This document shows positions 6,170-63,476 of a stretch of 64,000 nt of DNA, one piece after another. The number at the start of each line of letters is the position of its first letter. Positions within the stretch are counted from its first letter, which is position 1. The DNA comes from Devosia sp. Root436 (GTDB taxonomy: Bacteria; Pseudomonadota; Alphaproteobacteria; Rhizobiales; Devosiaceae). Below the pieces are notes generated by a model. The model was not told the DNA's origin, did no database searches, and saw nothing but the letters and a program-made list of their open reading frames with translations. The stretch lies in contig NZ_LMEM01000001.1 of NCBI RefSeq assembly GCF_001426345.1, positions 221,700 to 285,699 of the forward strand, written 5' to 3'. Position numbers and translations under genes: made by a program.

Positions 6170-6931
6170 ATGTCCATCGATCCAGCCATAGCCAATGATA
6201 TTGCGGAGCGCCCCCGCCTGCGCATTCCCACGCATCTTGGCGTGATCATGGATGGCAATGGCCGCTGGGCCGAGGCGCGCGGCAAGCGCCGCACCGAGGG
6301 TCATATCGAGGGCGTCAAGGCGCTGCGGAACCTCGTCGAGCTCTGCATCAATTACGGCGTCGGGCACCTCACCGTATTCAGCTTCTCATCCGAAAACTGG
6401 ACGCGGCCAAAGGACGAGATATCGTTCATATTCAATCTGCTGCGCCGCTTTGTTGCATCGGACCTGCAAAGGTTGATCCGCAACAACGTGCAGGTCCGCA
6501 TCATCGGTAGCCGCACCGGGCTGGAGCCCAGCCTGGTCCGCCTGATCGACGATGTCGAAGCCAAGACCGCGTCCAATACGGGCCTCGTGCTCATCGTCGC
6601 CTTCAACTATGGCGGCAAGGCCGAAATCGCCGATGCGACGCGCCGGATTGCCGCCGAGGTGGCCGCCGGCCGCCTGGTGCCCGAGGCCATTACCGAGGCC
6701 ACGATCGCGGCGGCGCTGTACACGGCCGGGCTGCCCGATCCGGACCTCATCATCCGCACCAGCGGCGAACAGCGCATTTCCAATTTCCTGCTGTGGCAGG
6801 CCGCCTATGCCGAGTTCGTTTTCGTCGATGAAAACTGGCCCGATTTCGGGGAAGCCAGCTTCATTCGCGTGCTCGAAACCTTCGCGCGGCGCGACCGGCG
6901 TTTTGGCGGTATCGAGGCGGAGCGATCTTGA
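6170..6931 (+). CDS. uppS: Isoprenyl transferase (undecaprenyl diphosphate synthase)
   Basis: cis-Prenyltransferase making the undecaprenyl-PP carrier for peptidoglycan and O-antigen synthesis; 253 residues. The pyrophosphate-binding signature HLGVIMDGNGRWAEARG and GHIEGVKALRNL lie near the N-terminus, FSFSSENWTRP in the middle, and DLIIRTSGEQRISNFL with the Mg-binding ENWPDF at the C-terminus. It begins 29 bases after frr and its stop overlaps the TTG start of cdsA. Confidence 0.96.
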   Translation: MSIDPAIANDIAERPRLRIPTHLGVIMDGNGRWAEARGKRRTEGHIEGVKALRNLVELCINYGVGHLTVFSFSSENWTRPKDEISFIFNLLRRFVASDLQRLIRNNVQVRIIGSRTGLEPSLVRLIDDVEAKTASNTGLVLIVAFNYGGKAEIADATRRIAAEVAAGRLVPEAITEATIAAALYTAGLPDPDLIIRTSGEQRISNFLLWQAAYAEFVFVDENWPDFGEASFIRVLETFARRDRRFGGIEAERS

Positions 6932-7788
6932 GCAATCCAGGCGATCCCGCGTCAGATCCTGTCGTCAGTCGCCGCCGTACCTGGTCCGATCTGGGGCCTC
7001 GCCTCGTCTCGGCCCTGGTGCTGATCGCGCTGACGGCGACAGCGCTCTATATCGGAACCTATGTGTTCGCTGCCGTGGTTGGTGCCGTCTTTGCCGGGGC
7101 CTATCGCGAATGGGAAACCATGGTGTCCCGTGCCCCGCTGACGCCGGCAGGCATGGCGCTGATTGGCCTGGTGGCCGTATCGGGGCTGGTCTATCCGCTG
7201 TTCGGGCCGCTGGGCACGATCGCCGTGATCGCCCTGGCCTGCCTGGTCGCCGTGGCCATGCGGGGCGAGGGCGTGCTGTGGCGCATCCTGGGCCTCGTGA
7301 TCTACGGCGCCATCATCGTGGCGGCGCTGGCCATGCGGGGCGATACGCTGACCGGGGTCTGGGCCGGGGTCTATCTCGGCACCGTGGTCTGGATGACGGA
7401 TTCGGCGGCCTTCTTTACCGGCAGGCAGATTGGCGGCGAGAAGCTGGCGCCCGAGATTTCGCCCTCCAAGACCTGGTCGGGGGCGCTTGGCGGATTGGCA
7501 CTGGGCACCGGGGCAGGGCTGCTGGTCTGGATCGTGGCAACCGATTCCCCCTGGTGGATCGGGTTTGTGCTGTCTGCGGCGATCAGCGTGCTTGGCCAGT
7601 TGGGCGATCTCAGCGAAAGTGCGATCAAGCGGCATTTCCGCATCAAGGACAGCGGCGACATCATTCCCGGCCATGGCGGGTTGATGGACCGGCTGGACAG
7701 CCTCACATTTGGCGTCTTGCTGGTATTGCTGGTGGGGGCGCTGCATGCCGGCTACGGCGCGGTCGCCGAAGGCCTGCTCTACTGGTAG
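6928..7788 (+). CDS. cdsA: Phosphatidate cytidylyltransferase
   Basis: Makes CDP-diacylglycerol from phosphatidate and CTP in the inner membrane; 286 residues. It starts with TTG overlapping the uppS stop (TTGA). After a short basic N-terminus there are about eight hydrophobic segments. The C-terminal CDP-DAG synthase signature is clear: SPSKTWSG, GQLGDLSESAIKRHF and the GHGGLMDRLDSL metal and substrate motif. In many bacteria dxr follows; here rseP follows after 42 bases. Confidence 0.95.
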   Translation: MSNPGDPASDPVVSRRRTWSDLGPRLVSALVLIALTATALYIGTYVFAAVVGAVFAGAYREWETMVSRAPLTPAGMALIGLVAVSGLVYPLFGPLGTIAVIALACLVAVAMRGEGVLWRILGLVIYGAIIVAALAMRGDTLTGVWAGVYLGTVVWMTDSAAFFTGRQIGGEKLAPEISPSKTWSGALGGLALGTGAGLLVWIVATDSPWWIGFVLSAAISVLGQLGDLSESAIKRHFRIKDSGDIIPGHGGLMDRLDSLTFGVLLVLLVGALHAGYGAVAEGLLYW

Positions 7789-7830
7789 CGGCGGTGCGCG
7801 GGCACTGCATTCGCTGACGCAAGGATACCC

Positions 7831-8967
7831 ATGTTCGAATTTCTCTATTGGCTCTTGTCCTATGTCGTGCCGTTCCTGGCGGTACTGACGGTGATCGTGT
7901 TCGTGCACGAAATGGGGCACTATCTGGTGGCCAGGTGGAATGGCGTGGCGATCGATGCCTTTTCGGTCGGCTTCGGCCGCGAGCTGATCGGCTGGAACGA
8001 CAAGCACGGCACGCGCTGGCGTATCTCGGCGATTCCGCTGGGCGGCTATGTGCGCTTTACCGGCGACATGAACGCCGCCAGCGTTCCCGACCCCGAGGCC
8101 CTGGCCAATGTCGATCCCGAACTGGCGCCGCGCCTGTTCGCCAACAAAAATGTGTGGCAGCGCATTGCCGTCGTCGCGGCCGGGCCGCTGGCCAATGTCA
8201 TCCTGACCTTCCTCATTCTCTATGCCCTGCTGCTGGGCTATGGCCGCTACACGATTCCGCCTGTTGTCGGCGACGTCATCGCCGGTTCGGTGGCCGAGGC
8301 GGCCGGCATCGAGCCGGGCGACATCATCATATCGGTCGATGGCTATGCCGTGCGCGGCTTCGAAGATTTTCAACGCCTGGTGGCGACCAGCCCGGAACGG
8401 CCCGTGACCGTGGAACTGGATCGTGGCAGCGTCAGCAAGACTCTGGTCCTCGTGCCCGAGGCGGTCGATGTGGAAGACCGTTTCGGCAACAGCCAGCGCA
8501 TCGGTCGAATCGGGGCGAGCCGCGACGTGGCGGAGACCGATGTGACGCTCTACCGGCCGGGACCGGTCGAGGCGATCGGCATGACCGTCGAGGAAATTCG
8601 CTTCATCGTCCAGCGGACCGCCGCGTTCCTCGGCGATTTCTTCGTCGGGCGCGGCGATGTCGAGCAGTTGGGCGGGCCGGTCAAGGTGGCCAAGGTTTCC
8701 GGGGAAGTGGCGACGCTGGGCATCGTGGCGCTGATCAACCTCACCGCTTTGCTGTCGCTAAATATCGGTATTTTCAATCTTTTACCGGTTCCCATGCTCG
8801 ACGGCGGCCACCTTCTGTACTATCTGGTTGAAGCTGTCAGGGGGCGTCCGCTGAGCATGAGGGTGCAGGAAATGGGCTTCCGGTTCGGATTTGCCCTGGT
8901 CCTCGCACTCATGGTGTTCACGCTGTTCAACGACACACTGTTCGCCTATTTCGGAATCTTGCGTTAA
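7831..8967 (+). CDS. rseP: Site-2 protease RseP (intramembrane zinc metalloprotease)
   Basis: Intramembrane M50 protease that cleaves anti-sigma factors and remnant signal peptides; 378 residues. The zinc motif HEMGH lies at residues 26-30 in the first membrane helix. A PDZ domain follows (about 120-210; PGDIIISVDGYAVRGFEDFQ). The C-terminal M50 motif MLDGGH supplies the third zinc ligand. It has a single PDZ domain, as usual in alphaproteobacteria, whereas E. coli RseP has two. It sits directly upstream of bamA, its common partner. Confidence 0.95.
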   Translation: MFEFLYWLLSYVVPFLAVLTVIVFVHEMGHYLVARWNGVAIDAFSVGFGRELIGWNDKHGTRWRISAIPLGGYVRFTGDMNAASVPDPEALANVDPELAPRLFANKNVWQRIAVVAAGPLANVILTFLILYALLLGYGRYTIPPVVGDVIAGSVAEAAGIEPGDIIISVDGYAVRGFEDFQRLVATSPERPVTVELDRGSVSKTLVLVPEAVDVEDRFGNSQRIGRIGASRDVAETDVTLYRPGPVEAIGMTVEEIRFIVQRTAAFLGDFFVGRGDVEQLGGPVKVAKVSGEVATLGIVALINLTALLSLNIGIFNLLPVPMLDGGHLLYYLVEAVRGRPLSMRVQEMGFRFGFALVLALMVFTLFNDTLFAYFGILR

Positions 8968-16243: not shown

Positions 16244-17662
16244 CTAGACAGCGCCGATTTGATCCTCAAGGCGAGCCATACTTTCGGCTCGTCCGATCAG
16301 CACCATGACTTCGAAAATACCCGGCGAAACAGTGCGCCCGGTCAGCGCCGCGCGCAGTGGCTGGGCCAGCTTGCCGAGCTTCAATCCCTTGGCCTCGGCC
16401 AGCGCCCGCATCGCTGCGTCGATAGCCGGCACCGACCAGTCGTTGAGGCCGCGCAGCGTCTCCGCCATGTCCTTGAGCACCGTCCGCGTGTCCGTGGTCA
16501 GCAGGGCCGCCGCCGCCGCATCGATAGCAAGTGGGCGTGACGCGTAGATGAACTGCGCCAGGTCGATCAGCTCCAGCACCGTCTTGGCGCGCGGCTGCAG
16601 CTCGGGCAAGGCGGTCAACACCGTGTCCCTATTGGCCGAAAGACCATCCACGTCCACCTGCCGGCCCAGCTCGGCGGCCGTGGCCAGCATCACGTCATAG
16701 AGATAGGCCGGTGCCGCTTCGCGGATATAGTGGCCGTTGATATTCTCCAGCTTGACGAAATCGAAGCGCGCCGCGCCCTTGTTGAGCCCTTCGAGGCTGA
16801 ACCATTCCACCATCTGCTGGGTCGAGAAAATCTCGTCGTCACCATGGCTCCAGCCGAGGCGGGCGAGATAGTTGCGCAGGGCTTCGGGCAGATAGCCCAT
16901 CTGCCGATAGGCCTCCACGCCCAGCGCACCGTGGCGCTTGGAGAGCTTGGCGCCGTCCGGGCCGTGGATCAGCGGGATATGGGCCATCTCGGGCACGGTC
17001 CAGCCCATGGCATTGTAGATGACGATCTGGCGGGCGGCATTGGTCAGGTGGTCGTCGCCGCGGATAATGTGGGTCACGCCCATGTCGTGGTCGTCGACCA
17101 CCACGGCGTGCATGTAGGTCGGGGTGCCATCCGAGCGCAGGATGATGAAGTCATCGAGGTTCTCGGTCTTGAACACCACCTTGCCCTGCACATGGTCGTC
17201 GACCACGATATCCCCCGACAGCGGCGCCTTGATACGGATCACCGGCGCGACCCCGGCAGGCGCCTCGCCCTGGTCGCGGTCGCGCCAATAGCCGTTGTAG
17301 CGGGGGGGCTTGCCGGCGGCGCGGGCCTCCTCACGCATCTGGTCCAGCTCGGCCGGCGAGCAATAGCAGTAATAGGCGTGACCCATTTTCACGAGTTCAT
17401 GAGCGATCTCGGCATGGCGGGCCGCCCGGCCGAACTGGCTGATCGGCTCGCCCTCCCAGTCGAGACCCAGCCATTTGAGCCCGTCGACCAGCGCCACCAC
17501 CGCCGCTTCGGTCGAGCGTTCGCGGTCGGTATCCTCGATGCGCAGCAGCATCTTGCCGCCCTTGTTCTGGGCATAGGCCCAACTGAACAGGGCCGTGCGG
17601 GCGCCACCGATATGCAGGTAGCCGGTGGGCGAAGGGGCGAAGCGGGTGACGACCTGGGACAT
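16244..17662 (-). CDS. gltX: Glutamate--tRNA ligase
   Basis: Class I aminoacyl-tRNA synthetase charging tRNA-Glu; 472 residues from ATG 17662 ([20 protein letters not shown]). The ORF could extend upstream to 17803 but that part is not conserved. The HIGH-type motif is [13 protein letters not shown] and the KMSKS-type motif is AKLSKRHG. The segment [20 protein letters not shown] corresponds to the insert region of bacterial GluRS. The divergent comEC starts 77 bases away. Confidence 0.96.
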
Positions 17663-17739
17663 GAGACCGGAATGCTTGGAGGATTTGTGGGCCGTGTGTA
17701 GCATAGAGCGGCACGAGCGCAAGGGCGGGGGCGAAGCGG

Positions 17740-19848
17740 GTGCTGGAGGCCGAAACACGCGAGCGCGAAACCGGCACCGCGCCTGTGCCGGTGCGCGCGC
17801 CATTGCGGCGCCTGCGCCCCGCGTCGGCGGTGGACAAGGGCCTTGCCGATGCTGCGGTGGCGCGGCGTCTTTTCGTGCTGCTGCCCTTCGCCATGATCGC
17901 CGGACTTATTGCCTATGCGGCGCTGCCCTTCGAGCCGGCGCCGCAGGCGCTGGCCATGCTGGCTGCTGCTGCGCTGCTGCCGGCCGTGCTGCTGTGGCGT
18001 TCGCCCGGCCTGCCACTTGCCGGCCTGCTGCTGGCGGCCTGGGCCGGGTTCTGCCTGCTGCCGCTGCATGGGCTGTGGTTCGGCACCACCATGCTGACGC
18101 GCCCCGCCTACGGGCTCTATCAGGGCCGGGTGGACGAGATCGTGTCGGCCACCGATGAAAGCCGACGCATCATCGTTTCGGGCCTCGTCCCCCTGTCCGA
18201 TGACCGGCCTGTCGATATTGCCCGCGCGCGGCTGGTGGTGCCGCCGCAGCCGCCGCTGGCGCCGGGCGATATCATCCGCGCCAACATGCGGCTGGCGCCG
18301 GTGCCCGGTCCGATCCTGCCGGGCGCGTTCGACGGCCAGTTCCACGCCTATTTCGCCGGTATCGGCGCCTATGGCAACGTCACCAGCGATTTCGCCCTGG
18401 TGAGCACCGGCGGGCCTGATCCGACGCGCGCCGTGGAAGGCCTGCGCATGGCTATCGGCAGCCGCATCGACGCGGTGCTGACGGGCCCGTCGGCCGCGAT
18501 TGGCCGGGCAATGGTGGTGGGCGACCAGAGCGCCATCGATGACGCAACTCGCAAGGTCATGGCCGCCGCGGGGCTGGCCCATGTCTATTCGATATCGGGC
18601 CTGCATCTGTCCATCGTGGCGGGCGGCATGTTCTTCCTGCTGCGGTTGCTGCTGGCCGCGATTCCGGCAACGGCCACGCGCTGGCCGGTCAAGAAGATCG
18701 CGGCTGTCGGCGGCATTGTCGCGGCGGCCGGCTACCTGCTGCTGGCGGGCGGGCTGGCCAATGTGCCGGCCCTGCGCTCCACCATCATGCTGGGCCTGAT
18801 CTTCGGCGCGGTGCTGGCCGGACGGCGGGCCTTGACCATGCGCAACGTCGCCATCGCGGCTTTGGCCATCATCGTCATCGATCCGGCCAGCGTCTTCCGC
18901 GCCAGCTTCCAGCTTTCCTTTGCCGCCGTGGTGGCGCTGATCGGCATCTACGAGATGCCGCGTCCGCCACCGGCTGGGGAGCGCAACTGGGGCCAGCGCC
19001 TGTGGGCCACCATCTGGGCCACCGCGATTACCAGCCTTATCGCCGGCACCGCGACATTGCTGTTTTCGGCCTACCACTTCCAGCAGACGGCGCCGCTGGG
19101 CGTGGTGGGCAATGTGCTGGTGCTGCCGGTGGTCAGCCTGGTCATCATGCCCTTTGCCGTGCTGTCGGTCCTCGCCATGCCGTTCGGGGTCGAGGCGCCG
19201 TTCATCATGGCGATGGGCTGGGGCATAGACCGCATGATCGACGGCGCCGTTCTGGTGGCCGGCTGGAGCGCGGGGCTGACCGGTAACCCATTGCTGACCG
19301 GTCTTGCCTTGATCATCGGCCTCGTGGCCTTGGCCTGGTTCGCCTTCCTCAACAGCTGGTGGCGGCTGCTCGGGCCGGCGCTGGCGCTGCCGCTGATCCT
19401 GCTGGTGGGTGTCGATCAGCGACCGGACCTGCTTGTCGCCGATACCACGCAGGCGGTGGCCTTGCGCACGGAAGCCGGCCTGGGGCTCATCACCGGCCGC
19501 ACCGGCAGCTTTGCCACCGATGTCTGGAGCGAACACTATCAGGAGTCCATCGCGGCCATGGCGGAAGGGGTACGCTGCGACAGCCTGGGCTGTATCGCGA
19601 CATCAGACCGTTTCTCGGTCGCGGTGGTGCGCAATGCGGCGGCCTTCGCCGAGGATTGCGGCCTCAATCAACTCGTCATCGCCCGCATCCGGGCGCCGGC
19701 GAATTGCACCGGCAGTCAGGTGATCGATGCCGACGCGCTGGCCGCGGGCGGCGTCCACTGGCTGCGCTGGAACGCGGCGGCGGGGCGGTTCGATATCCGC
19801 ACCGCCATTCCCAATCTCACCCGGCCGTGGCGAGTCGTGCCACGGTGA
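17740..19848 (+). CDS. comEC: ComEC/Rec2-family DNA uptake channel protein
   Basis: Predicted inner-membrane channel for single-stranded DNA in natural transformation; 702 residues, GTG start. It has a basic N-terminus, three early membrane helices, a DUF4131 OB-like segment (about 115-230) and the Competence domain with the signature [12 protein letters not shown] near residue 287, followed by many helices. The C-terminal soluble part (about 545-702) is related in position to the metallo-beta-lactamase domain but shows no HxHxDH motif. That is common in alphaproteobacterial members. No other competence gene is nearby. Its last 32 bases overlap the convergent beta-galactosidase gene. Confidence 0.9.
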
Positions 19849-21778
19849 CACCGGCCGCCGGCATGTCGGCCGATCCGAGCACATAGCCGGCTTCGTCCTT
19901 GCTCGTGCTGAGCGTCGCGGGGCGCGAACCGTAGTTCACATAGACGCGGAAGCCGTCGCGGGTGCGGCAGCGCACGCCCGCGGGCAAAGCCAGCGTGGGC
20001 ACATCGGCTTCGGCGATCAGGTAGTCCGCCACGCGCTGCACCAGTGCCTTGGTGCCGCTGGCGCCGAGATAAAACAGCTTGCCTTGCGATACCAGCACCG
20101 GCCAGCCTTCATTGTCCTCGATAACCACGTCGGCCCCGGTTTCGATGCGCTCGCGCCAGTGGCGCACCGCCCCGCCGCCGCCCCTGACCTCGACTTCCAC
20201 TGCCGGATCGATGCTGTCGATCCGCGCCACTTTCACGTCGAGCAGGTTGGTCGGCAGGTGCGGCGCGAGCGCGGCCGGGATGGCGAAATTTTCGGTCTTG
20301 GAGCCCGAGCGCGGCCCGATCAGCAGGCGGCCGTCGAATTCGGTGATGGCGTGCCGCAGCGCGTCGTTCCAGGCGAACAGCGCCGGAATGGCGACGATGT
20401 CATAGCCGGCAAAGCTCCTGGTGCTCGGCGGCAGGATGTCGATGTCGATGCCGTGCTTGCGGAAGGCGGCATAGAGCGCCCGCACATGCGCGCCATGCGA
20501 AAAGCCCTTGGCCTGCGGCTGGATTTCCCAGGCCCATTCGCTCTGGTAGTCGAAGACGATGGCCACGCGCCCCTTGGCGGCATTGCCGCTGATGCCGACC
20601 GTCTTCAGCTCCTGGGCGACCTGGATGGCCTCGTGATAGGCCGGCGCCGGCTCGCTGTCGGGCCGCAGCAGGCCGGCATGCATCTGCTCCTGCGCGAACG
20701 GCGCCTGCCGCCAGCGGAAATAGGTCACCACTTCGGCACCGTGGGAGAAGGCCTCCCAGGCCCAGAGGCGGGCCATGCCGGACAGCGGGTCGGGATTGAA
20801 CTGGGCCCAGTTCACCGGGCCGGGCTGCTGTTCCATGACCCACCAGCGGCCATGCCCCACGGCGCGATAGAGATCGTGGTGGAACGCCGCATTATCAGGA
20901 TCGCCCTGGCGCATATAGAGGCGCTTGATCTCCTCCGGCTCGTCGCTGACGGCAAGATGGCCGATGGGATAGCTGTCCCAACTGGCGATATCGAGCGTTT
21001 CGGCCAGGTCGTAGTGGTCGAACTCGGTATAGCGCGACATGAAATTGTGGATGACAGGCAGGTCCGGGCGCCGGGCCTTGAGAATGTCGAACTGCACTTT
21101 GTTGAAGGCGGCAACCTGGTCGGATGAGTAGCGGCGGAAATCGAGGTCATGCGCCGGTGCCGCTTCGCAGACCAGCAGGTTGGGCAGGTCCACCTGGTCG
21201 AAGCGGTTATATTCCATCGACCAGAACACATTGCCCCAGGCCTCGTTCAGGGCATCGACCGTGCCGTACTTTTCGGCCAGCCAGCGCTGGAAGCCTTCCC
21301 GCGCGGCGGGCGAATAGGAATAGGTGGTGCCGTGGCAGCCATATTCGTTATCGGTCTGCCAGGCCCCCAGCGCCGGATGATCGCCAACTGCATCGGCCAG
21401 CAGGCGCGTGATGCGGCCGGCTTCCTCGCGATAGCCGAGATGGCTGAAATCATAGTGCCGGCGCGAGCCGAAACCCTTGCGGCGGCCCTGCGCATCGACC
21501 GCCAGCATGTCGGGATGCTTGTCCACCATCCAGCGCGGCGGTGTGGCCGTGGGCGTGCCGAACACGATCCTGAGCCCATGCCGCCCCAGCACGTCCATGG
21601 CGCGAATGATCCAGTCGAAGGTCAGCTTGCCCGGTTCGGGTTCCAGTTTGGACCAGGCGAATTCGCCGATACGCACCCAGGCGATGCCGGCCTCGGCCAT
21701 GCCCGCGGCGTCGCTTTCCCAAACATCCTCGGGCCAGTGTTCGGGATAGTAGCAGACGCCGAGGGCGGGAGCGGTCAT
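19817..21778 (-). CDS. GH42 beta-galactosidase
   Basis: Hydrolyses terminal beta-D-galactosides; cytoplasmic, no signal peptide, 653 residues from ATG 21778 (MTAPALGVCYYPEHWPEDVW). The N-terminal TIM barrel holds the acid/base pair in AWQTDNEYGCH (Glu145) and the nucleophile in WWVMEQQPGPVNW. A beta-galactosidase trimerisation domain follows (KGRVAIVFDYQSEWAWE; IVAIPALFAWNDALRHAI), then a C-terminal beta domain. It is the last gene of a minus-strand operon with a lactonase, dgoA and dgoK, which would feed it into galactose breakdown. Its 3' end overlaps comEC by 32 bases. Confidence 0.93.
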   Translation of the reverse strand: MTAPALGVCYYPEHWPEDVWESDAAGMAEAGIAWVRIGEFAWSKLEPEPGKLTFDWIIRAMDVLGRHGLRIVFGTPTATPPRWMVDKHPDMLAVDAQGRRKGFGSRRHYDFSHLGYREEAGRITRLLADAVGDHPALGAWQTDNEYGCHGTTYSYSPAAREGFQRWLAEKYGTVDALNEAWGNVFWSMEYNRFDQVDLPNLLVCEAAPAHDLDFRRYSSDQVAAFNKVQFDILKARRPDLPVIHNFMSRYTEFDHYDLAETLDIASWDSYPIGHLAVSDEPEEIKRLYMRQGDPDNAAFHHDLYRAVGHGRWWVMEQQPGPVNWAQFNPDPLSGMARLWAWEAFSHGAEVVTYFRWRQAPFAQEQMHAGLLRPDSEPAPAYHEAIQVAQELKTVGISGNAAKGRVAIVFDYQSEWAWEIQPQAKGFSHGAHVRALYAAFRKHGIDIDILPPSTRSFAGYDIVAIPALFAWNDALRHAITEFDGRLLIGPRSGSKTENFAIPAALAPHLPTNLLDVKVARIDSIDPAVEVEVRGGGGAVRHWRERIETGADVVIEDNEGWPVLVSQGKLFYLGASGTKALVQRVADYLIAEADVPTLALPAGVRCRTRDGFRVYVNYGSRPATLSTSKDEAGYVLGSADMPAAGVTVARLATAG

Positions 21779-57676: not shown

Positions 57677-58732
57677 TCATTGTGCCCCGACCTCGTCCTT
57701 CAACGGGCTCAGGATCAGGTCTACTGGACGTTTACCGAACGCCGGGATCACGTGCCGGCCGTAGCCCGCAATGATTTCTTCCTCGTCGCCGCTGTCGAGA
57801 TAGATGTTGAACTGGGTCACGCCCGCATCCTCGAGCGCGTGCATCTTGGCGATATGGTCTTCCGGTTCGCCCAGCACGCAGAAATTCTCCACCACGTCGG
57901 GCGTAATGAAATCGAGGAACGGATTATCCGACTGGCCGTGTTTGGAATAGTCATAGCCACGGCGCTTCTCGATATAGCTGGTGAGGCTCTTGGGAATCTG
58001 GTCGCTATCGGCGCCGTATTTCTCGACGATATCGGCGACATGGTTGCCCACCATGGCCGGGAACCACCTGGTGGCCTCGATGGCGCGGGCCTTGTCGCCG
58101 AAATAGGCCGGTGCCGCGGCCATGGAGCGGAACTTTGACATGTCCTTGCCCGCCGCCTTGCCGGCATCGACGCACTGGTCGGTGAACCATTTGCAGAGGC
58201 CGGGATCGGCCAGTTGCAGCACCACGCCACCGGCATGCTCGCCGGCGGTCTTGAGCGCCAGCGGGCCATAGGCGGCGATCCAGCTCGGCATTTCATGGCC
58301 CACGGCCCAGGGAAATTTCACCGCTGCCGGGATCTCGCCATAGGAGACTTCCTCGCCGCGCACCATGGCTTGCGTCTTGGCGATGAATTCGGCCACGCGG
58401 GCCAGCGTCGCCGGTTTCTTGCCCATGACGCGCATGGAGCTGTCGCCACGGCCTACGGCCAGGTCGAAGCGTCCGCCGCTCTGCTTGGAGAGGGAGCCGA
58501 AGATCGAGGCGGCGACTGACCAGTCGCGGACGTCGGGATTGGTCACCAGCGGGCCAAACCGCATGTTGGTCGTGTGTTCCATGCACATGGCGATGGCGGC
58601 GTAGCAATCGCGCCAGAGAATGTGGCTGTCATAGAACCAGCAATAGCTGAAGCCGGCATATTCGGCGGCGCGCACCAGGTAGCGTGCACGTTCGGGCTCT
58701 ATGAAACCCTTGAAGGTGATGCCGAATTCCAT
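57677..58732 (-). CDS. LLM-class oxidoreductase, probably F420-dependent
   Basis: Luciferase-like TIM-barrel oxidoreductase of 351 residues from ATG 58732 (MEFGITFKGFIEPERARYLV). The extension to 58804 crosses a palindromic operator and was rejected. The fold is shown by YSHILW-like YDSHILWRDCYAAIAM, RFGPLVTNPDVRD, GRFDLAVGRGDSSMRVMGKK and IAAYGPLALKTAGEHAGGV. It resembles the CPS_4043 family of putative F420 enzymes. Its substrate is unknown. It follows the F420-0 ABC transporter genes on the same strand and has its own operator-bearing upstream region, so it is the likely consumer of reduced F420. FMN use cannot be excluded. Confidence 0.82.
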   Translation of the reverse strand: MEFGITFKGFIEPERARYLVRAAEYAGFSYCWFYDSHILWRDCYAAIAMCMEHTTNMRFGPLVTNPDVRDWSVAASIFGSLSKQSGGRFDLAVGRGDSSMRVMGKKPATLARVAEFIAKTQAMVRGEEVSYGEIPAAVKFPWAVGHEMPSWIAAYGPLALKTAGEHAGGVVLQLADPGLCKWFTDQCVDAGKAAGKDMSKFRSMAAAPAYFGDKARAIEATRWFPAMVGNHVADIVEKYGADSDQIPKSLTSYIEKRRGYDYSKHGQSDNPFLDFITPDVVENFCVLGEPEDHIAKMHALEDAGVTQFNIYLDSGDEEEIIAGYGRHVIPAFGKRPVDLILSPLKDEVGAQ

Positions 58733-58748
58733 GAGCGCCTCCCGTCCG

Positions 58749-58772
58749 AAATTTGACCAGTCGATCAAATTT
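58749..58772. promoter_or_regulatory. Palindromic operator upstream of the LLM oxidoreductase gene
   Basis: AAATTTGA (58749-58756) and TCAAATTT (58765-58772) are perfect inverted arms around CCAGTCGA. The inner 18 bases TTTGACCAGTCGATCAAA match the operator-like palindrome before fgd (63459-63476) at most positions. It lies 17 bases before the LLM start codon. Confidence 0.7.
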
Positions 58773-58822
58773 TTGAGTTGCTGCCGCGCGATTGTCAATC
58801 GCAATCACGCGCCGGTATAGAT

Positions 58823-59605
58823 TTAGCCGGGCAGTCCATAGGCGATCAGCGGGCGGCCGGTGCCGGGGTGGCGCAATATGGCTGCGTCGACACCATAGAC
58901 CTGGCGGAGCAGGGCAGGGGTCAGCACCGTTTCCGGCGGTCCGGCAGCCGCCACCCGGCCGCCATGCAGCACTACCAGCGAATCGCAGAAACTGGCGGCC
59001 AGGTTGAGATCATGCAGCGCCAGCAATACCGTGGCGCCCGCATGCGCGCGTTGGCGCAGCAGGTCGAGCGTGGCGAGTTGCGCATGCACGTCGAGATGAT
59101 TGGTCGGCTCGTCGAGCAGCAGCAGGCGCGGCTGCTGCGCCAAGGCGCGGGCAATCTGGATGCGCTGTTGCTCGCCACCGGACAGCGTCTGATACAGGCG
59201 GTCGGTAAAGGCGGTCATGCCGACCGCAGTCAGTGCCGCCTCGGCCAGGGACAGGTCGTGGGGGGCGGGGCTTGCCTGCCAGACGGGCTGGAACGGGATG
59301 CGGCCGAGCATCACCACCTCACGCGCCGTGAGCCGCGCGTCGGTATCGCTGTTCTGTTCGACAAAGGCGGTGAACTGGGCACGCGCCCGGCGGGGAAGGG
59401 TGACCAGGTCCGAGCTGTCGAATGTCACCGAGCCGCCATGGGGCAAGAGACCGAGAATGGCCCGCATCAGCGTGGACTTCCCGGCGCCGTTGGGGCCGAT
59501 CAGGCCCGTCATGGTGCCCGACGCTGCCCGCATGTCGATGCCGCTGAGGATCGGCTGGCCGCCCAGTTGTACGCTGACTCCGCTGACCACCAGCCCCGCG
59601 CTCAT
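58823..59605 (-). CDS. ABC transporter ATP-binding protein, proposed F420-0 importer
   Basis: ATPase of a FecCDE/BtuCD-type importer, 260 residues from ATG 59605. Walker A GLIGPNGAGKSTLMRAIL, Q-loop AFVEQNSDTDARLTAREVV, signature LSGGEQQRIQIARAL, Walker B RLLLLDEPTNHLDV and switch His in LALHDLNLA are intact. The start overlaps the permease stop by four bases. By context with cofE and fgd it fits the cassette proposed to import coenzyme F420-0; a cobalamin or siderophore role is the alternative from family membership alone. Confidence 0.88.
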   Translation of the reverse strand: MSAGLVVSGVSVQLGGQPILSGIDMRAASGTMTGLIGPNGAGKSTLMRAILGLLPHGGSVTFDSSDLVTLPRRARAQFTAFVEQNSDTDARLTAREVVMLGRIPFQPVWQASPAPHDLSLAEAALTAVGMTAFTDRLYQTLSGGEQQRIQIARALAQQPRLLLLDEPTNHLDVHAQLATLDLLRQRAHAGATVLLALHDLNLAASFCDSLVVLHGGRVAAAGPPETVLTPALLRQVYGVDAAILRHPGTGRPLIAYGLPG

Positions 59606-60615
59606 GTGATCCGCCGGTAGCGCAGCAGCACGAGGAGGAAGATCGGCGCACCGAGCAGGGCTGTGATAATGCCGACCGGCAGTTCGCGCGGCTCGAACAG
59701 GCTGCGCGCTGCCGTATCGGTCCACACCATGAAGCTGGCGCCCAGCAGCATGGCGACAGGCAGCAACACGCGATGGCGCGAGCCGGTCACCAGCCGCGCC
59801 ACATGTGGCACGATGAGCCCGACAAAGCCGATGGCGCCGCCAATGGAGACCAGCACCCCGGTTAGCAGCGCCGTGCCGCCCAGCAACAGCCAACGTAGCC
59901 GTGCCACATCGACGCCAAGCGCCGCCGCGGCCGTATCGCCAAAGGCAAAGGCATCGAGCGAGCGCCCCGACAGCAGCACCGGCAAGCCCGCCAGAAGCAG
60001 CGCAGCGAGCACCAGCAATGCCTCCGACCAAACAACGCCGCTCAGCGAGCCCATAAGCCAGCTCAGGATTTCGCGGTAGGAATCGCCGGTCGCCGACCAG
60101 AAGATGAGGAATGACGTTGCCGCGGCGGCCAGCGCGGAAATGGAAATGCCGGCAAGGATCGCCCTTGTCGGCGTGGCGCCACCCAGCAATTGGGTGACCA
60201 GCAGGGTCAGGCCCATTGCCGCCGCCGCGCCGACAAAGGCGCCGAGCGGCATCAGTAAGGCAGCGCCGGCAAGCAGGAAGGCCACGGCGCCCAGCGATGC
60301 GCCAGACGACAGCCCCAGCAGATAGGGATCGGCCAGCGGATTGCGTGTCAGTGCCTGCATGACGGCGCCGCATAAGGCCAGGCCTGCTCCCACGGCAGCA
60401 GCGGCCAAGACCCGCGGCAGGCGCAAATCCCAGATGATGGCGTCACGCAAGCGGCCGACCGGGTTTTCGGCCACGAGACCAAGATGGTAGCCGATGGTCT
60501 GCCACACTTCTGATGGCGCGATATCGGCCGGCCCGAAGGTCACGGCCAGCACTAGGCTGGCCAGCAGCAGCGCCAGCAGGCTCGATATCAGCACTGCCAG
60601 CGTCGGCCGCTTCAC
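59602..60615 (-). CDS. ABC transporter permease (FecCD family), proposed F420-0 importer
   Basis: Inner-membrane permease of 337 residues, GTG 60615 overlapping the binding-protein stop. It has about ten hydrophobic segments and the FecCD hallmarks LRLPRVLAAAAVGAGLALCG, MQALTRNPLADPYLLGLSSG (residues around 80-105) and GFVGLIVPHVARLVTGSRHR, the ATPase-contact loop region. A single permease gene would act as a homodimer. The cassette lies between cofE and the LLM gene. Confidence 0.88.
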   Translation of the reverse strand: MKRPTLAVLISSLLALLLASLVLAVTFGPADIAPSEVWQTIGYHLGLVAENPVGRLRDAIIWDLRLPRVLAAAAVGAGLALCGAVMQALTRNPLADPYLLGLSSGASLGAVAFLLAGAALLMPLGAFVGAAAAMGLTLLVTQLLGGATPTRAILAGISISALAAAATSFLIFWSATGDSYREILSWLMGSLSGVVWSEALLVLAALLLAGLPVLLSGRSLDAFAFGDTAAAALGVDVARLRWLLLGGTALLTGVLVSIGGAIGFVGLIVPHVARLVTGSRHRVLLPVAMLLGASFMVWTDTAARSLFEPRELPVGIITALLGAPIFLLVLLRYRRIT

Positions 60616-61559
60616 GGCGCGAAACTGAGGCCGGCCAATTGGGCGGCCAAGTCGGCGGTCGCGCCCACATTGCGCACACCGGCTTCGGAGGCGGGAAAGG
60701 GTACCACGAGGTAGCGCTGGTGGATCACGGCATCGAGCTGGCTGGTGATCGGGTTCTCGACCAGCAGCGCCTTTTTCTGCTCCGCTGAATTCCAGAGGGC
60801 ATCGACCAGCACGATGACATCGGGATTGGCATCCACCACCGCCTCCCAACTGGCCGAAACCCAGCCGTCATCGACAGCGGCCATGATGTTTTCCAGCCCG
60901 AGCGCTTCCAGTATCATCTGCGGCGCGCCGCTGCCGGCGCCGACATAGGGCGTCTTGGTGCCCGAGGAATACCAGAGCGCCGTCAGCCCCCGCGTGTCCG
61001 GCGTGATGGCGGCCAATGCCGCCTCTTGCTGCGCAATCAGCGTATCGGCGGCGCCAGCGGCGTCGAAGATGGTGCCCATCTCCGCGATTTCGGCAAAGAC
61101 CTCGTCAAAGCTCAGCTTGGCCGGCTTCACCGAGCGGCAGGCGGCGGGCGACACGTAACCCGCCACGCCGAGCGCGGCCAGGGTCGGCCTTTCGCCTGCG
61201 CCATCGGCAGAAAAATTGCTCTCCCAGCCGGCATAGATCAGGTCCGGTTCGACTTCGAGCACCACCTCCTGCGAGGGCAGCTTGTCGGAAAGTACCGGCA
61301 GAGCCGCAGCGGCCGCCGTCCAAGGCTCGGGCGCTACGTCGTCCTGGAAGCCGACGCCGACGATCCGGTCGCCAAGGCCCAAAGCCAGCAGCATTTCGGT
61401 GGCGGTCGACTTGATGGTCACCACCCGCTGCGGCGCAGCCGCCAGTGTGACGTCCATGCCGCAATTGTTGAGGGTTAGCGGATAGCTTGTCTGGGCCATG
61501 ACATGGCCGGACGACAAAGCGAGCACGGCAAGGCTGAGAGACAAGGGCAGGGGGCGCAT
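60612..61559 (-). CDS. ABC transporter periplasmic binding protein, proposed F420-0 binder
   Basis: A 315-residue periplasmic protein from ATG 61559; the ORF extends upstream inside cofE but the signal peptide MRPLPLSLSLAVLALSSGHV (ending near MAQ) starts here. It has the class III fold with APQRVVTIKSTATEMLLALG, LGDRIVGVGF, EPDLIYAGWESNF, ALWYSSGTKTPYVGAG and NPDVIVLVDALWN. The NCGMDVTL, GWESNFSADGAGERP and SSGTKTPYVGAG segments resemble, from memory, the actinobacterial protein family proposed to bind F420-0. It begins four bases after cofE. Confidence 0.87.
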   Translation of the reverse strand: MRPLPLSLSLAVLALSSGHVMAQTSYPLTLNNCGMDVTLAAAPQRVVTIKSTATEMLLALGLGDRIVGVGFQDDVAPEPWTAAAAALPVLSDKLPSQEVVLEVEPDLIYAGWESNFSADGAGERPTLAALGVAGYVSPAACRSVKPAKLSFDEVFAEIAEMGTIFDAAGAADTLIAQQEAALAAITPDTRGLTALWYSSGTKTPYVGAGSGAPQMILEALGLENIMAAVDDGWVSASWEAVVDANPDVIVLVDALWNSAEQKKALLVENPITSQLDAVIHQRYLVVPFPASEAGVRNVGATADLAAQLAGLSFAP

Positions 61560-61563
61560 GGGG

Positions 61564-62400
61564 TCAGTCCTGTTTGACGCGTTCGGCCTTGGATTGCGGC
61601 GTGGGCTGGTCGCGCAGTTCAGCCTGTGCGGCCTCATAGCCCAGTCGATAGGCCTCGGCCGAACCGAAGCGGAACATGTCGTCATCCACTGAGCGCACCA
61701 GCGTATGGGCGCCCGGCGCATCCATGTCGGCCACCAGCCGCCCCAGCCCGCGCACCACGGCCACGGGAATGCCTGATGCCTTGCCCTTGACGAGGTCGGC
61801 AGCACCGGCCAGCTCGTCGGCCAACACGGTGATGGTGACATTGAGCGGCCGCCCATTGGCATCGACACCACCGCGCAGGTCGTCGGTGACTACAATGCCG
61901 GCAGCTCCGATGGCGACATCGGTCTGCCCCACGCGCCAGGGCCGGCCCAGTGTATCGGTGACGATGATGCCCAGCGCAACCCCGAACCGCGCCCGCAGGC
62001 CGGCGCACAGCGCCCGGGCGGAACGGTCAGGGTCTTCCGGCAGGCGCAGCGCCAGTCCGTCCGGCACGTTGGAGGTGTCGATGCCCGCCGCCGCCATGAT
62101 GAGGCCGTGCCGGGTCTCGACGATTTTGGTCACGCCGCCGGGATGGACGCGTTCCGCCACGATGCGGACGGTGTCCTGCGCAATGGCCTTTTCGCGGTCG
62201 GCCACCGGCACCTGCATGCCTTCGGCCTTGGAAACGATCTTGCTGGTGATGACGAGAATGTCGCCATGCCGCAGCGCTGCATCGGGATCATCGGCGATCG
62301 AAGCTTCTATGGCCGTAGCGATCAGCGCCACGAGATCGTCGCCCGCACCGATCTCCGGCACGCCCGTCACGCCCCAGACTGTATATCGCGGCATTGCCAT
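61564..62400 (-). CDS. cofE: Coenzyme F420-0:L-glutamate ligase
   Basis: Adds gamma-linked glutamates to F420-0 with GTP; 278 residues. The CofE landmarks are [18 protein letters not shown] at the N-terminus, [55 protein letters not shown] and [16 protein letters not shown]. It is stand-alone: the C-terminal nitroreductase-like domain of actinobacterial FbiB is absent. It starts 9 bases after fgd and precedes the ABC importer by four bases, so the three functions are one operon. No cofC, cofD, cofG or cofH lies in the window. Confidence 0.92.
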
Positions 62401-62409
62401 TGCCGTGAC

Positions 62410-63426
62410 CTAGCTGGCGCTCGCGGCGGGCGCAAGGGACCGCAGTCGCGGCAGGATTTCTCTGGCATAAAGAGCGATGAACCGGCTCTGGTCCTCGCCC
62501 GGCGCGTGGAACACCAGGTGATCGAAGCCGTAATCCATGTAGGTCTTGATCGCTGCCACATGCTCATCGGGGTCGCTGGAGACGATCCAGCGCTTGGCGA
62601 CACGCTCGATGGGCAATTGCGCCGCCAGCCGCTCCATTTCGGCCGGATCTTCGACCGAATGCTTTTCCTCCGGCGTCAGCGACAGGGCCGCCCAGCCGCG
62701 CGTATTGTTCAACGCCAGCTCGGGATCGGGGTCGAACGACACTTTCACCTCGATCATACGCTCGAAGGGCAACCCGGCGCGGTCGGATTCGGCCCGGCCG
62801 ATGGCGACGTTGGGCAGCAATTGATCGACATAGAGCTCGGCGCCCTTCCCAGAGGTGCAGATGAAACCGTCGCCGGCCCGGCCGGCATATTTGGCATTGA
62901 GCGGGCCGCCGGCAGCCAGGTAGATCGGCACCATCTTGTCGGGCCGGTCATAGATGGTCGCGCTCTGCGTCTGGTAGAATTCGCCCTCGAAGGTGACGCG
63001 TTCCTCGCTCCACAGCTTGCGGATCAGCGTCACCGCCTCGCGCAGCCGCGCGGAGCGTTCCTTGAGCTCGGGCCAGACCATGCCCGTGGAAGGCACTTCG
63101 TTGAGCGACTCGCCGGTGCCGACGCCGAGGATGACGCGTTCGGGAAACATGGCGCCCAGCGTGCCGAAGGCATGCGCGACGACCGACGGATGCAGCCGGA
63201 AAGTCGGCGTCAGCACCGAGGTTCCAACGATGATCTTTTCCGTGCGCGCCAAAGCCGCCGCCATCCAGGCCGGTGCGAAGGGCGCATGGCCATCGGTATG
63301 CTTCCACGGCTGGAAATGATCGCTGATGAACACCGATTCAAACCCGGCCTGTTCCGCCTCGATGGCGAAACGCAGCAGCGTATTGGGGGCGAACTGTTCG
63401 GCAGAAGCCTTGTAACCGAAGCGCAT
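62410..63426 (-). CDS. fgd: F420-dependent glucose-6-phosphate dehydrogenase
   Basis: Oxidises glucose 6-phosphate and reduces F420; LLM fold, 338 residues, strong GGAGGTC Shine-Dalgarno. It is very close to mycobacterial FGD1: [46 protein letters not shown]. The catalytic residues match FGD1 His40, Trp44 and Glu109 as His37, Trp41 and Glu106. The phosphate-binding residues are kept in [18 protein letters not shown] and VAKRWIVSS. It is the first gene of the F420 operon and has a palindromic operator upstream. Such a faithful FGD is unusual in a proteobacterium. Confidence 0.92.
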
Positions 63427-63458: not shown

Positions 63459-63476
63459 TTTGACCAAATGGTCAAA
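63459..63476. promoter_or_regulatory. Palindromic operator upstream of fgd
   Basis: TTTGACCAAATGGTCAAA: eight-base perfect arms around AA, 32 bases before the fgd start. It closely matches the palindrome before the LLM gene (58752-58769). It is the kind of site bound by TetR- or MarR-type dimers; the regulator is not in the window. Confidence 0.75.

Follow-up and report, generated by a model that had tools for sequence, protein, structure and literature searches.

Why would a bacterium that seems unable to make the deazaflavin cofactor F420 keep an operon for finishing, recharging, and using it, and on what would the reduced cofactor be spent? The question is raised by the alphaproteobacterium Devosia sp. 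Root436, at positions 57677–63426 of the window, meaning the whole 64,000-nucleotide stretch that was analyzed (contig 1, 221700–285699). Six intact open reading frames, all on the minus strand, encode an F420-dependent glucose-6-phosphate dehydrogenase (FGD), the stand-alone F420-0:L-glutamate ligase CofE, the substrate-binding protein (SBP), permease, and ATPase of an ATP-binding cassette (ABC) importer, and an oxidoreductase of the luciferase-like monooxygenase (LLM) type. The favored answer, held with moderate confidence, is that the operon serves to salvage and use F420 under RutR-type, pyrimidine-linked control, with F420H2 spent on the reduction of uracil or thymine. The gene content of the operon, the lack of CofD and CofH matches, the conservation of an operator sequence, and the neighborhood associations are established. 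The operator and the pyrimidine link supply the likely purpose of the operon, beyond salvage itself.

Probable salvage of F420 across the genus

Devosia seems to be unable to make F420, importing a nearly finished form that it would then complete and recharge. Profile searches of 75 genomes of the genus, including the 3.92-Mb genome of Root436 (judged 99.97% complete), find no CofD and no CofH, and CofC is above its cut-off in none of them; CofG had no search of its own. Weak CofC matches below the cut-off occur in 26 of the 75, Root436 not among them. The absence of CofD is informative because the same model finds CofD above its cut-off in 57 of 385 genomes sampled from Alphaproteobacteria. 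The preliminary description of this DNA had noted that cofC, cofD, cofG, and cofH are missing from the window and had proposed salvage of F420-0 from neighboring organisms, against which a full F420 pathway elsewhere in the genome would have spoken. No such pathway was found, and for CofD, CofH, and CofC the absence now extends from the window to the whole genome. F420-0 salvage is well supported, with F420-0 being the substrate that we infer for the importer.

The importer and cofE are found in the same genomes. At E 1e-60 the SBP model matches in 60 of the 75 Devosia genomes, in none of 76 relatives outside the genus, and in one of the 385 sampled alphaproteobacterial genomes, which is Root436 itself; cofE is above its cut-off in the very same 60 (lists matched by hand). 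One Devosia genome of 2.0 Mb (G053) holds only a broken cofE and LLM remnants (L185:5992–6466), an apparent case of a decayed operon. The other 59 operon-bearing genomes of the genus were compared over as much as 12.9 kb surrounding the SBP gene. All six genes are present in 55 of these 59 loci, and the remaining four lie on contigs that end within the operon. The LLM gene stands first rather than last in 12 of the 59, and in one of the 55 (L182) the three importer genes are fragmented, probably by frameshifts. With all reading frames intact in Root436 and the arrangement recurring across the genus, the six-gene, same-strand operon of the preliminary description is placed beyond chance.

Some loci carry additions. 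In L152 an insertion of ~1.3 kb separates the SBP and permease genes (about 6855–8189, oriented), and in L134 and L136 the first 3 kb (oriented) hold a second, ~40% identical FecCD-type importer, divergent beside the F420 operon. Another Devosia genome (G065) has the standard operon and also a second importer (L179) with a different cofE (TIGR01916, 265.8 bits), followed by a 6-phosphogluconate dehydrogenase gene.

Families were assigned with NCBIfam models and their curated cut-offs (Table 1). The gene families expected from the window hold for five of the six proteins. The ATPase falls short of the TIGR03873 cut-off, even when re-started at an ATG, though TIGR03873 is its best model and leads the next by 90 bits in the NCBIfam scan. 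For the importer this means that the SBP and the permease fit the F420-0 models as predicted and the ATPase does not, and that the set is a divergent variant of the F420-0 cassette rather than a clean member. The ATPase still prefers TIGR03873 over heme, B12, and siderophore models, which goes against a grouping with cobalamin or siderophore importers. Among solved structures, FGD best matches FGD1 of Rhodococcus jostii (5lxe, 467.7 bits), CofE matches 7uld/2phn (96 bits), and the SBP is nearest to chain 4mlz_A (301.7 bits); by eye, the SBP has a signal peptide without a lipobox cysteine. The genes are tightly packed, with gaps of 9 bp between fgd and cofE and 4 bp between cofE and the SBP gene, followed by 4-bp overlaps at the SBP/permease and permease/ATPase junctions. 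The widest gap, 90 bp, separates the ATPase and LLM genes.

A palindromic operator and a probable link to pyrimidines

Two palindromes, one before fgd and one before the LLM gene, fit the candidate operator pattern TTTGAYC-N4-GRTCAAA (Table 1). With no more than one mismatch allowed, a site lies 37–74 bp before fgd in all 47 fgd-first Devosia loci and 37–106 bp before the LLM gene in all 55 Devosia loci that have one; the LLM-first operons carry it before the LLM gene only (12 of 12). Just two further matches with at most one mismatch occur in 724,250 bases of loci, and there are 100 exact matches, against none when the letters were shuffled five times. Conservation reaches 96% and 99% in the two arms and 44–62% in the flanks, the arm values being partly built in because the pattern itself selected the sites. 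In the non-Devosia loci compared, where only exact matches were sought, the pattern is absent. The palindrome seems to resemble the RutR box, with the letters TTGACCAnnTGGTCAA. The box is described as a palindrome of roughly 16 bp (PMC10891134).

About 41% of the Root436 genome (~1.6 of 3.92 Mb) was covered for operator sites and dehydrogenase genes. Stretches of this genome amounting to 1,531,768 bases hold one more site with one mismatch, 161–178 bp before the chosen ATG of a gene of the CpdB type (837.9 bits against a cut-off of 486). Relaxing the limit to two mismatches gives eight sites in all, one of which, with two mismatches, lies ~50 bp before the chosen ATG of a protein that is 49% identical to E. 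coli RutR and is encoded divergently from a pyrimidine-degradation cluster. The two further matches noted above come from two other Devosia genomes, where they lie between an LLM fusion gene and a nucleoside-hydrolase-like gene that scores below the family cut-offs. The additional sites at CpdB-type and nucleoside-hydrolase-like genes fit a role in nucleotide and nucleoside use.

The fusion (L026:2483–4762 and L180:1744–4020) is a protein of 758–759 amino acids that joins an F420-type LLM domain to a FAD-linked (BBE-type) oxidase. Its gene sits beside the F420 operon with the same operator, and the nucleoside-hydrolase-like gene is divergent from it. Among the 66 loci L123–L188, 24 have a nucleoside-hydrolase-like match above 80 bits in the vicinity of the F420 operon.

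The Root436 cluster next to the RutR relative (Table 1) resembles a reductive pyrimidine pathway without a recognizable first enzyme. The gene set of this pathway (Pyd) has been described, as has its first step, in which PydA runs on NADPH, NADH, or ferredoxin (PMC7332683). E. coli PreA and PreT have no match near the cluster, and their best matches elsewhere in the covered part of the genome reach 100 and 52.8 bits. The PreA match in L238 was judged by eye to be PyrD/PyrK. This PyrD/PyrK-like pair (~17300–19900) adjoins a Zn-dependent hydrolase gene and perhaps belongs to an orotate or hydantoin route.

Actinobacterial relatives of the LLM enzyme also point to pyrimidines. Such relatives occur in 31 of 66 importer loci (L032–L097), all 31 of them actinobacterial, and in every one a dihydropyrimidinase gene adjoins the LLM gene on the same strand at a distance of 7–191 bp. 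An amidase gene is also present in all 31, the order of transcription being amidase, dihydropyrimidinase, LLM, and the amidase may be read as beta-ureidopropionase-like. Two more importer loci have a dihydropyrimidinase gene at a contig end. In the sole set that was scanned by family (L092), the dihydropyrimidinase scores 530.5 (cut-off 393.25) and the amidase has TIGR03381 as its best model, at 252.8 below the cut-off of 410.25. E. coli PreA and PreT score at best 30.8 bits across L024–L097.

The association recurs on plasmids, where LLM matches were found in 13 records, 10 of them from Leisingera; five were inspected. Two Leisingera species have a cofG-cofH-cofD-cofC-cofE-npdG-LLM operon that ends with a gene for a RutR-like TetR regulator (194.1 of 368 in one species). 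The operon is divergent from genes for a transhydrogenase, an aminotransferase (AptA), a Zn hydrolase, a dihydropyrimidinase, and an NCS1 nucleobase symporter. In Streptomyces a dihydropyrimidinase gene directly adjoins the LLM gene, and in Caballeronia a truncated LLM gene adjoins one for a Zn hydrolase. No phage match to the LLM enzyme was found, which counts against spread by phages. Because dihydropyrimidinase is the neighbor of the TIGR03842 relatives in all 31 actinobacterial loci that have them, and lies near them in Leisingera, the LLM enzyme of the window is probably an F420H2-dependent uracil reductase.

The predicted structure of the LLM enzyme (mean pLDDT 82.3) is nearest in fold to Mer, the F420-dependent methylene-tetrahydromethanopterin reductase (8qpm, 1f07), and the first 22 PDB chains that it matches, from a smaller number of entries, are all F420 enzymes. 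The Glu at position 6 of Mer is replaced by Thr in the LLM enzyme of the window and by Val in 24 aligned actinobacterial LLM proteins. Two identities were rejected. As Mer, the enzyme scores far under the cut-off (TIGR03555, 121.3 of 348.7). As a RutA-type FMN monooxygenase it fares no better, its first fold matches being F420 enzymes and E. coli RutA having no match at E 1e-6 in the window or the covered genome. E. coli PreA and PreT likewise have no match in the window at E 1e-6, so the LLM enzyme is not of the PreA/PreT family. What is proposed is a shared reaction with PydA/PreTA, not a shared family.

In the proposed mechanism, in which the substrates of the importer and of the LLM enzyme and the identity of the regulator are inferred, the ABC importer would take in F420-0, or a related phospholactyl deazaflavin, from neighbors. 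CofE would attach glutamate to it, and FGD would reduce the cofactor at the expense of glucose-6-phosphate. The LLM enzyme would use F420H2 to convert uracil or thymine to the dihydropyrimidine, in place of the NAD(P)H-dependent PydA/PreTA. Enzymes with genes elsewhere in the genome would process the product further: the dihydropyrimidinase, the N-carbamoyl-beta-alanine hydrolase, the aminotransferase, and the semialdehyde dehydrogenase. Control would lie with a RutR-like TetR repressor that probably recognizes both palindromes.

Table 1. The F420 operon of the window, its candidate operators, and the pyrimidine-degradation cluster found elsewhere in Root436
Feature	Position in window	Strand	Best model or site, score (cut-off)
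fgd, F420-dependent glucose-6-phosphate dehydrogenase	62410..63426	-	TIGR03554, 492.5 bits (420)
cofE, stand-alone F420-0:L-glutamate ligase	61564..62400	-	TIGR01916, 218.7 bits (180.65)
SBP of deazaflavin importer (putative)	60612..61559	-	TIGR03868, 433.8 bits (392.4)
FecCD-type permease, GTG start	59602..60615	-	TIGR03869, 448.3 bits (437.35)
Importer ATPase	58823..59605	-	TIGR03873, 340.9 bits, below cut-off (372.4)
LLM oxidoreductase, TIGR03842 family	57677..58732	-	TIGR03842, 481 bits (295.45)
Candidate operator 1, TTTGACCATTTGGTCAAA (read on -)	63459..63476	.	exact pattern match, ~48 bp before fgd
Candidate operator 2, TTTGATCGACTGGTCAAA (read on -)	58752..58769	.	within the ATPase-LLM gap
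AptA-type aminotransferase, pyrimidine cluster			755.6 (500)
Methylmalonate-semialdehyde-dehydrogenase-family enzyme, pyrimidine cluster			561.8 (448.5)
Hydantoinase/carbamoylase, pyrimidine cluster			388.8 (204)
Dihydropyrimidinase, pyrimidine cluster			596.4 (393.25)
ABC importer with NMT1-type binding protein, pyrimidine cluster

Possible substrates of the importer and the LLM enzyme

The cassette defined by TIGR03868, TIGR03869, and TIGR03873 is, according to the TIGRFAM proposal, a putative F420-0 importer of Actinobacteria. Fifty importer genomes were chosen from 74 importer loci; several are drafts or metagenome-assembled genomes, with completeness not given, and some of the gene absences among them may for that reason be false. 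CofE is above its cut-off in all 50, CofD in 24, CofC in 20 (plus two fragmented), and CofH in 2, with 1 near miss that resembles a divergent FbiC; the CofH counts come from hidden Markov model (HMM) searches with matches at E ≤1e-40 only. One of the two genomes with CofH is an Aeromicrobium (L096/G196), retained among the 50, whose SBP fits EitA better. In 25 genomes none of CofC, CofD, and CofH is above cut-off. In 22 genomes CofD is present and CofH is not above cut-off, which suggests the import of Fo there. Many loci of Cellulomonas have cofD as the very next gene after that for the ATPase (order SBP–permease–ATPase–cofD). Part of the importer family may import Fo, and the name F420-0 importer may be too narrow.

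A tree of the importers was built by a quick search with a midpoint root; its 78 rows are the window, 11 further Devosia loci that were picked, and those of the 74 importer loci in which the SBP, permease, and ATPase genes are all present. Devosia and Labrenzia, the latter on a long branch, form one clade (SH-aLRT 98) amid the importers of Actinobacteria, a placement that suggests transfer from that group. CofD presence switches at least nine times on the tree (49 rows, with L033 left out for lack of a permease and ATPase), and the substrate may thus not follow importer type. Spread of the importer on plasmids was considered and rejected, SBP matches on plasmids all being below 60% identity (the best among the matches listed 40.6%). 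A distant second SBP relative is encoded on contig 3 of Root436 with its own permease and ATPase (L002/L186; TIGR03868, 187.4 bits, below cut-off). The locus of Labrenzia sp. DG1229 (L188) combines cofE and a TIGR03619 F420 LLM gene with a divergent importer whose SBP, at 365.5 bits, stays under the cut-off.

A tentative alternative is that the importer is not specific for F420-0 and transports Fo, or any deazaflavin, a reading to which the many importer genomes with CofD and the few with CofH, the Cellulomonas gene order, the repeated CofD switches, and a report of FO in bacterial culture supernatant (PMC11104420) all lend weight. In Devosia no CofD was found, and imported Fo could therefore not be turned into a substrate for CofE; F420-0 or a glutamylated form would be the sole import that CofE could use. 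The 25 importer genomes with none of the three biosynthetic enzymes above cut-off also argue against Fo, with the caveat on false absences given above. It is very improbable that the importer is one of the usual kind for siderophores, heme, or cobamides and lies among the F420 genes by chance. Membership in the FecCD superfamily, the ATPase score, and a weak match of the SBP to the siderophore protein EitA (125 bits) would agree with it, but the SBP and permease exceed the F420-0 cut-offs, the SBP and intact cofE share an identical set of 60 genomes, and cofE accompanies the importer in 50 of 50 importer genomes. It is scarcely credible that Devosia makes F420 by an unrecognized route with the importer as a supplement. 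Nonhomologous enzymes would escape the HMMs, and no CofG-specific search was made, but other Alphaproteobacteria yield matches to the CofD model, as other genomes do to the CofH model, and both models draw a blank in all 75 Devosia genomes.

It is unlikely that the same salvage operon serves an LLM enzyme that reduces something other than a pyrimidine, such as an unsaturated xenobiotic or a folate-like compound, with the RutR-type control and Pyd neighbors reflecting general nitrogen scavenging. The adjoining dihydropyrimidinase in all 31 actinobacterial LLM loci and in Streptomyces, the nearby Pyd genes of Leisingera, the Zn hydrolase in Caballeronia, and the loss of the Mer Glu6 are all against it. 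The nearest solved relatives of the enzyme are nevertheless Mer proteins, and three observations that favor this alternative also weigh against uracil or thymine reduction as the purpose of the operon: a Paracoccus plasmid has a cof operon with an LLM gene and no annotated pyrimidine genes within 9 kb, the Devosia LLM gene and pyrimidine cluster are on separate contigs, and 35 of the 66 importer loci have no LLM gene in the stretch compared (some shortened, some full length). The same side of the balance holds the different LLM family in the Labrenzia importer locus, the 15 of 75 Devosia genomes with neither the importer nor an intact cofE, and the status of the F420-0 importer label, for which we know of no biochemical test. 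The RutR relative is under both curated RutR cut-offs (233.3 of 368; 216.6 of 230), the site in the E. coli rutA–rutR gap differs from the Devosia pattern by 3 mismatches, and across the two E. coli stretches compared the pattern fits best, with 1 mismatch, within preA. Finally, the PyrD/PyrK-like pair matches PreA at 29% identity (100 bits), and since the PreA/PreT search spanned only the ~1.6 Mb given above, Root436 may still encode a normal dihydropyrimidine dehydrogenase.

A pyrimidine-linked salvage operon nonetheless invites a wider claim, for and against which the case is evenly balanced. TIGR03842 would be a new, F420H2-using class of dihydropyrimidine dehydrogenase, and F420-0 would be a vitamin that Devosia imports mainly for the uracil/thymine step, with a RutR-type sensor switching on import, finishing, recharging, and use jointly. 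Cellulomonas and its kin would in addition be Fo auxotrophs that import Fo via the same transporter family. The open-access literature searched holds no report of an F420-dependent uracil reductase and no precedent for F420H2 in pyrimidine reduction under a RutR-type switch; in the accessible text of an F420 review (PMC8498797) the words "uptake", "import", "salvage", and "auxotroph" appear 0 times. If the claim is right, F420 becomes a vitamin traded within microbial communities, beyond its place as a home-made cofactor, and an LLM family known just by a model number acquires a substrate. Pyrimidine catabolism would gain a fourth electron donor, after NADPH, NADH, and ferredoxin, and an importer proposed from genome comparison would become testable by simple feeding.

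Comparison with known systems

The Devosia operon shares with the actinobacterial F420-0 importer cassette its three genes beside cofE, a host without CofD or CofH matches, and an SBP and permease above the cut-offs for that cassette. It differs in being alphaproteobacterial, in having an ATPase below the cut-off, in including fgd and a TIGR03842 LLM gene, and in its operator, which was found solely in Devosia when exact matches were sought. The cofGHDCE-npdG-LLM operons of Leisingera and Paracoccus are alike in having cofE and an LLM enzyme 68–69% identical to that of Devosia, and the Leisingera operon is also alike in its RutR-like regulator and Pyd genes. Those operons encode de novo F420 synthesis and an NADPH-dependent F420 reductase (NpdG), whereas Devosia has an importer and FGD.

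Mer provides the closest solved structures to the LLM enzyme, which differs from it in its low score on the Mer model and in lacking the Glu at position 6. With the Pyd pathway, Root436 has in common a dihydropyrimidinase, a carbamoylase-family hydrolase, an AptA-type aminotransferase, and a semialdehyde dehydrogenase; the difference is that the PydA step of Devosia would run on F420H2. A parallel comes from uric acid clusters of Chloroflexota, which contain a putative F420-dependent yanthine reductase that is itself only proposed (PMC12507026). That enzyme belongs to a purine pathway in another phylum, but there, as in Devosia, a luciferase-family F420 enzyme is put forward as a substitute reductase for a nucleobase-type substrate.

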